Below are positions 29,810 to 30,679 of a stretch of DNA of 36,166 nt, one piece after another (position 1 is the first letter of the stretch; each line of letters begins with the position of its first letter). Below the pieces are notes generated by a model that searched no databases, had not been told where the DNA came from, and saw nothing but the letters and a program-made list of their open reading frames with translations. The position numbers and the translations under genes are program-made. The stretch comes from a bacterium (GTDB lineage: Bacteria; Actinomycetota; Aquicultoria; Aquicultorales; Aquicultoraceae): assembly GCA_902810715.1 (NCBI GenBank), contig CADDYS010000012.1, forward strand, positions 1 through 36,166. Direction: 5' to 3'.

Positions 29810-29868
29810 ACCTTGACAAAGGTAGGATAAAAGTATAATTTCAAAATCAGATACCTTACCGGTAAGGT
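29810..29868 (+). promoter_or_regulatory. Promoter with two palindromic operator candidates
   Basis: TTGACA (29813-29818) and TATAAT (29834-29839) are both perfect boxes, but the spacer is only 15 nt, so unassisted activity may be low. ACCTT-GACA-AAGGT (29810-29823) overlaps the -35 box. A perfect 16-bp palindrome, ACCTTACCGGTAAGGT (29853-29868), lies just after the expected start site. Both share ACCTT/AAGGT half-sites, implying one regulator. Confidence 0.6.
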
Positions 29869-29908
29869 TATTGCTAACCTAGTTACCAGGCTACTTAGGA
29901 GCTGCATC

Positions 29909-30679
29909 ATGAGCGATATTTTGTGCTCGTCGGGCGATTGCTGAGCACCTGCAAAATATACGGAAAACTGCATGGTATGCGGTGAAAAACTAGATTATAG
30001 AGCCAATCCCGAATCTCTTACGTGCTACTTCTGCGGAGAGACTAAACCCGGTAGTATATCCTGCCCGAACGGTCACTTTGTGTGCGATGCCTGCCATGGC
30101 AAAGACGCCTACAGCGCAATATCTGATATCGCCTTTAACACAGAGTCAAACGACCCGGTAGAGATCGCCGATCAGATGATGAGCCACCCATCCGTCCCCA
30201 TGATCGGGGGCGAACACCATGCGATTGTAGCTACTTCGATTATGGCCGCTCTGAAAAACAGCGACCCTTTCTTTTACAATGGACGGCAAATCACAGTAAA
30301 CAACGATCTTATTGAAAGAACCTTGGATAGGACATGGACCGACAAAGTCCCTTCCTGTACTTGTGCAAACTACGGTGCCTGTGGGGCGGCGCTAGCCTCT
30401 GGAGCGGTGTTTAGCCTATTGACCGACGCAACCTGTGATACCCCAAAAGCAAGAGAGAGGCAAATAGCAATGGAGGTCACCAACTACACGGCCTCAGATA
30501 TCGCGTGGTACCGTGGCACTTGCTGTAAACTCAGCGTAAAGCTTGCGATAGACGGCATTTGTTTAGCCATCAAAGAGCATATGGGCTTAGACCTACCCCG
30601 CAACCACACCAAGTGCCGGCATATGAAAAGAAATCCGTATAAGTGCTTTGGCGCACATTGTCCCTATTCTAAAGCTTAA
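29909..30679 (+). CDS. Candidate selenoprotein, DUF5714-type Cys-rich protein with in-frame TGA
   Basis: 256 residues if TGA at 29942-29944 is read as selenocysteine (residue 12), starting MSDILCSSGDCU. The start ATG has AGGAG 7 nt upstream. If TGA stops translation, the next start is ATG 29972 (235 residues), but that ATG sits inside the C21-M-V-C24 zinc knuckle and has only a weak GGA upstream. The full protein has a zinc ribbon (C21/C24 with C39/C42), a second Cys cluster (SCPNGHFVCDACHG), a helical core with EHHAIVATSIMAA, then SCTCANYGACGAA, GTCCKLS and a C-terminal NHTKCRHMKRNPYKCFGAHC. This resembles the DUF5714 family, function unknown; the abundance of Cys suggests redox or metal chemistry. 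A SECIS-like hairpin is at 29967-29983. The 3' end overlaps the convergent membrane gene by 11 bp. Confidence 0.72.
29967..29983 (+). promoter_or_regulatory. Candidate bacterial SECIS hairpin
   Basis: ACTGCAT (29967-29973), loop GGT (29974-29976), ATGCGGT (29977-29983): a 7-bp stem with one G-U wobble. The apical loop begins with G and lies 29 nt after the TGA. Known bSECIS elements have a small apical loop with G in its first two positions at roughly 16-37 nt from UGA, bound by SelB. The stem also encodes C-M-V-C, so it is under dual constraint. Confidence 0.6.

Follow-up and report, generated by a model that had tools for sequence, protein, structure and literature searches.

The closest described system is MbdU, the "metal-binding double selenoprotein" of NCBIfam (model NF045648), which carries the selenocysteine (Sec) motif CU and two Sec residues (PMC13188914, where the source given is reference 64, Haft and Tolstoy 2025). 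In a full MbdU (L143, scoring 726 bits against a cut-off of 600), the sequence MTDEIKDKNPSACU-P precedes the DUF5714 domain and the second Sec is located in the DUF2284 part.

The gene described here has an M23 peptidase gene and mnmA as its neighbours in the window, that is, the whole stretch of 36,166 nucleotides analyzed. Its reading frame is interrupted by a single TGA at codon 12, and we estimate at about 0.88 the probability that it is a genuine DUF5714 selenoprotein gene with its start at 29909. The original prediction stated that the family had no established Sec member; this has to be corrected, as the curated MbdU already places Sec in the same N-terminal Cys-Sec pair.

Reading frame, start codon, and conservation of the TGA

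The features of the gene, in window coordinates, are as follows:

29813 to 29839 (+): promoter-like TTGACA-15 nt-TATAAT, with a similar box pair in three relatives
29896 to 29901 (+): Shine-Dalgarno-like TAGGAG, 5' of ATG 29909; GGAG-type also in L018, L096, and L098
29909 to 30679 (+): predicted selenoprotein gene of the DUF5714 type, 256 residues including Sec-12, ending in TAA
29942 to 29944 (+): in-frame TGA (Sec-12), forming a CU motif with Cys-11 just before it; kept in five genomes
29967 to 29983 (+): putative SECIS hairpin (7 bp, loop GGU) at a spacing of 29 nt from the UGA, ACUGCAU-GGU-AUGCGGU
29969 to 30034 (+): first Cys quartet (codons 21-42), C21-x2-C24...C39-x2-C42, with no exception at any of the four among 55 sequences
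30062 to 30097 (+): second invariant Cys/His set, C52, H56, C59, and C62 (codons 52-63), with H63 nearly invariant
30119 to 30667 (+): DUF5714 domain (PF18978), profile match

The start codon at 29909-29911 is preceded by TTAGGAGCTGCATC, and the TGA at codon 12 follows CSSGDC and is followed by AP (DC-TGA-AP), after which the frame stays open for 244 codons up to the TAA stop at 30677-30679. This is the arrangement originally predicted, a start with a ribosome binding site and a TGA directly after a Cys, and it is preserved beyond the window. Among 36 genomes of the class, five, all from one bacterial family and the window's own included, have the gene with just one TGA, at this same position; no such gene was found in the class outside this family, and 396 genomes sampled from the phylum yielded no additional member of the type. 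The four relatives are 89, 80, 72, and 70% identical to the window protein over the full length. The ATG, the 11-codon lead, a Shine-Dalgarno-like site (GAGGAGAGG before the ATG in L019), and the C before U are common to all five genomes, and the region 5' of M22 is conserved as protein, its sole indel being of 6 nt. Because the same frame, with one TGA at the same place, recurs in four more genomes, it is not a product of chance.

Upstream of the gene, both promoter-like hexamers (TTGACA at 29813-29818 and TATAAT at 29834-29839) are perfect, with a spacer of 15 nt. A generic promoter scan gave no match upstream of the gene because its rule requires a spacer of 16-18 nt. Three of the four relatives (L018, L019, and L098) likewise have a TTGACA-15 nt-TAT-type pair 5' of the gene. 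A palindrome had been noticed in this region as well, and it is a real and perfect one of 16 bp (29853-29868), but none was seen in the upstream sequences of the relatives examined.

An alignment of homologues was proposed as the decisive check, with Cys expected at residue 12 where selenium is not used. In the 42 aligned homologues that have the N-terminal extension, this column is Cys or Sec in 39 and mostly Cys, bearing in mind that the extension is short and gappy and that column assignment is less certain there than in the core. Two homologues with Cys at the column (L064 and L077, CCC in both) come from genomes where tRNA-Sec was not detected, which is the outcome that the proposed check had asked for. 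Four others (L024, L028, L029, and L042) also have Cys at the column, yet their genomes contain tRNA-Sec.

Selenocysteine machinery and the putative SECIS hairpin

A single 3.6-kb contig of the window's own genome assembly (2.43 Mb in 153 contigs, 98% complete) encodes tRNA-Sec (76 bits; SeC tca in ARAGORN), SelA (532 bits), and SelB (399 bits); this contig ends just upstream of selA. The fourth gene that had been suggested for the search, selD, was not found in this draft, the only matches being ThiL-like and PurM-like frames, named from their sequences and neighbours. Nonetheless, selD is present in 8 of 11 genomes of the family (L114-L121), each copy with one in-frame TGA, and in several of them it shares a contig with tRNA-Sec, at a distance of ~4-5 kb. 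We infer that its absence from the window's own draft is an assembly gap. One awkward point is the draft of the nearest relative (G006, which carries L018), where neither tRNA-Sec nor selD was found; we read this as missing contigs.

The window's own genome also has, in contig C41, a tRNA-Cys(GCA) of ~92 nt (L002:1501-1592) that scores 48.9 bits, above the Rfam tRNA-Sec cut-off, and a similar tRNA-Cys(GCA) in G007 (L133:1501-1593, 57.4 bits) passes it too. Both resemble the tRNA-Cys known as selC*, a kind that includes forms with an opal anticodon and whose reported hosts are Firmicutes, Thermodesulfobacteria, Nitrospirae, and Proteobacteria, Actinomycetota not being among them (PMC7609411).

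According to the bSECIS model, a bacterial element has a loop of 3-9 nt with G in its first two positions, a stem of 4-16 bp, a spacing of 16-37 nt, and a minimum free energy (MFE) at or below -7.5 (PMC13188914). The putative hairpin past the UGA falls within this model for its loop (3 nt, GGU, or GGC in L019), its stem (7 bp), and its spacing (29-35 nt across the five genomes, being 35 in L096), whereas its energy is marginal and its stem is without variation. The MFE of the region in the five genomes is -10.5, -9.7, -7.4, -9.8, and -10.2 against the -7.5 threshold, and that of the hairpin alone is -5.9; the hairpin is part of the MFE structure in three of the five, with the window and L098 folding otherwise at similar energy. 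The five-way codon alignment has 128 columns in which a degenerate amino acid is invariant; in 16 of these all five genomes use the same codon, and codons 19, 20, 21, 24, and 25 (E, N, C, C, and G) are five successive members of those 16. This fixed block of codons 19-25, which includes M22, sits 3' of the TGA and can fold as the hairpin. With no stem position varying, the alignment contains no covariation, and the codons of CMVCG lend themselves to pairing of this kind in any case, 4-7 pairs being possible at the same place in other homologues. The hairpin would be the SECIS element of the gene: the UGA of codon 12 would be read as Sec via SelB and tRNA-Sec, aided by this structure just 3' of it, which shares nucleotides with the coding sequence of the first Cys-x2-Cys motif. 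Bacterial elements of this kind are species-specific.

Three other readings of the TGA have to be weighed. The sole start past the TGA that opens the remaining frame is ATG 29972, that is, M22, within C21-M-V-C24, and the resulting ORF of 235 residues is the form that automatic callers would give. A true protein beginning there, with the TGA outside the gene, would agree with the position of M22 in the frozen nucleotide block and with the many DUF5714 homologues that have no N-terminal extension. However, such a start would remove a conserved ligand, since C21 is invariant, as is C24, in 55 of 55 homologues, as the original prediction anticipated for the short form. Also, homologues do not all start at the downstream Met (the 11-codon lead is kept in five genomes and an extension exists in 42 aligned homologues), and the upstream protein sequence with only its 6-nt indel, the ATG, the Shine-Dalgarno-like site, and the conserved promoter-like boxes all belong to ATG 29909, which makes a start at M22 very unlikely. 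That a Cys codon turned into TGA, either by a sequencing error or by mutation in a pseudogene, would fit the Cys found at the column in most homologues, but five assemblies with 70-89% protein identity share the same TGA and the remaining frame is open and conserved, leaving this explanation with a practically negligible probability.

The UGA could also be read through or recoded as another amino acid, for example as Cys by an unusual tRNA, and the tRNA-Cys of tRNA-Sec-like shape in the window's own genome, of the selC* kind (PMC7609411), would be a candidate for it. Nevertheless, its anticodon is GCA and not UCA, and a canonical tRNA-Sec(UCA) together with selA and selB is available in the same genome, so recoding other than to Sec appears highly improbable. 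The reading of the TGA as Sec with the start at 29909, which was the central claim of the original prediction, is in turn well supported by the Sec machinery, by the TGA in five genomes, by Cys in homologues from non-Sec genomes, and by the loss of a ligand in the short form.

Ligand residues, paralogues, and the possible role of the protein

The DUF5714 match covers residues 71-253 (8.5e-39; 133.3 bits against a gathering cut-off of 26.2). Eight residues, C21, C24, C39, C42, C52, H56, C59, and C62, are invariant in 55 aligned homologues. The AlphaFold model has a pLDDT of 90 and is confident save for residues 1-13, the CU tail being predicted as disordered. No function could be proposed from the fold because a Foldseek search of the model against the PDB gave no match below E 0.3. 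A PDB sequence search with the alignment returned weak Cys-rich matches only, the best at 0.0045 (CWC24), and these were discarded.

Two further DUF5714 genes are present in the same genome. The first, in contig C52 (L015; L140:5227-6396, minus strand), is MbdU-like, with an AhpD-type (CMD) domain that replaces DUF2284. It has Sec in CQPU of the AhpD-type domain and in a C-terminal DCUTP, with Arg-Arg at the N-terminal CU site, and a C-terminal part similar to its own occurs in G005 (L109). Beside it are a methylcobalamin:CoM methyltransferase (320 bits, cut-off 244) and an ArsR/SmtB-type regulator whose closest model is TsoR (87 bits, cut-off 115). This regulator (L140:7513-7821, minus strand) has an in-frame TGA of its own in the wing region (YIYY-TGA-LSD), which may be Sec, a nonsense mutation, or a true stop; a search of the family found the TGA-bearing protein in the window's own genome only. 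The second paralogue, in contig C32 (L113), has the N-terminal motif SGUC, with the pair in reversed order, and like paralogues occur in G005, G007, G008, and G010.

Translation from ATG 29909 would give a 256-residue selenoprotein able to bind soft metals, in which a flexible N-terminal tail with the vicinal Cys-Sec pair is followed by a module with the invariant Cys/His ligands, probably for zinc, and then by the Cys-rich helical DUF5714 core. The tail would probably bind or reduce a soft metal(loid), or an organometal species, and shuttle it between core and partner enzyme. On comparison with relatives, the N-terminal Cys/Sec pair would seem to serve metal(loid) or organometal chemistry, either as a soft ligand or as a redox pair. 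We give this role of the protein roughly even odds, as it comes from the fusions of DUF5714 (to radical-SAM/arsenite-methyltransferase-like, DUF2284, and AhpD-type domains) and from the neighbours of the C52 paralogue, that is, by association from paralogues and homologues; the flanking genes of the window gene itself are uninformative on metals.

A serious rival, concerning the role only, is a selenoenzyme acting as a thiol/selenol oxidoreductase instead of in metal(loid) binding or transfer. A selenylsulfide could arise within the vicinal Cys-Sec pair, and in one of the paralogues DUF5714 is joined to an AhpD-type domain with CxxU. On the other hand, the CU tail is predicted to be disordered and stands in front of Cys/His sets that look like metal ligands, and the fusion partners point to chemistry of the arsenite-methyltransferase type; the oxidoreductase role is the less probable of the two. 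A bolder reading, about as likely as not, is that MbdU has beside it a second and separate family of DUF5714 selenoproteins, short, with a single Sec and a clade of their own. Within one bacterial family the vicinal Cys/Sec pair occurs in both orders (CU and UC) and at either end of DUF5714 paralogues, three of which are in this genome, and on this reading that would point to a selenium-dependent pathway dedicated to metal(loid)s.

Comparison with MbdU and other DUF5714 proteins

Against the MbdU model, the window protein scores 196.1 bits, far below the cut-off of 600, and aligns to model positions 36-266 of 468, only from its own residue 16. The existing NCBIfam model therefore misses this type at its cut-off, and such genes would be called minus the Sec residue and one invariant ligand. 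In a tree built on the DUF5714 core, with the N-terminal tail left out, a split (100/98) sets 19 rows, those of the MbdU-type clade and of the window clade, against the 40 others, and the window clade forms its own branch (100/98) apart from the MbdU-type clade; as the tree is unrooted, the 19-row grouping is a split and not proof of one Sec origin. Identity between the window protein and the MbdU-type relatives nearest to it is ~38%. The claim of novelty is thus wrong in its original form, since a Sec-containing kind of DUF5714 protein was already known in MbdU, and what is new here is the short, single-Sec, DUF5714-only architecture and its separate clade.

This extends the use of Sec in DUF5714 past MbdU to the standalone domain. 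Moreover, paralogues with Cys and Sec in either order, together with Cys forms fused to arsenite-methyltransferase-like domains, offer a direct handle on DUF5714 function.

In Nitrospirae, two DUF5714 genes (L021:3760 and L022:3757) have a tail of the form ...CVT-TGA-KP-TGA, ~55 bases past the DUF5714 match, which is possibly a C-terminal CxxU; both genomes contain tRNA-Sec.

Among the related systems, fusions of ~1000 residues from Desulfobacterota and Campylobacterota (L028, L042, L024, and L031) combine a radical SAM domain, an arsenite-methyltransferase-like (ArsM-like) domain, a CxC linker, and DUF5714 at the end. As in the window protein, a Cys motif stands before the CxxC and DUF5714, but it is of Cys and not Sec, and two large enzyme domains lie in front. 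The UC-type paralogues of the same bacterial family as the window gene (L106, L110, L112, L113, L101, and L107) also have an N-terminal vicinal Sec/Cys pair with TGA at the corresponding place; however, their order is Sec-Cys (SGUC) and they are placed in the MbdU-side clade. Finally, MbdU shares with the window protein a Cys-Sec pair near residue 14 before the domain (ACU-PT in L143, DCU-AP here), followed by a CxxC motif and then DUF5714. Nonetheless, the linker is ~30 residues in MbdU and ~8 in the window protein, and the two belong to separate clades. MbdU continues to ~468 residues with a C-terminal DUF2284 and a second Sec, whereas the window protein, of 256 residues and with a single TGA, ends after DUF5714.
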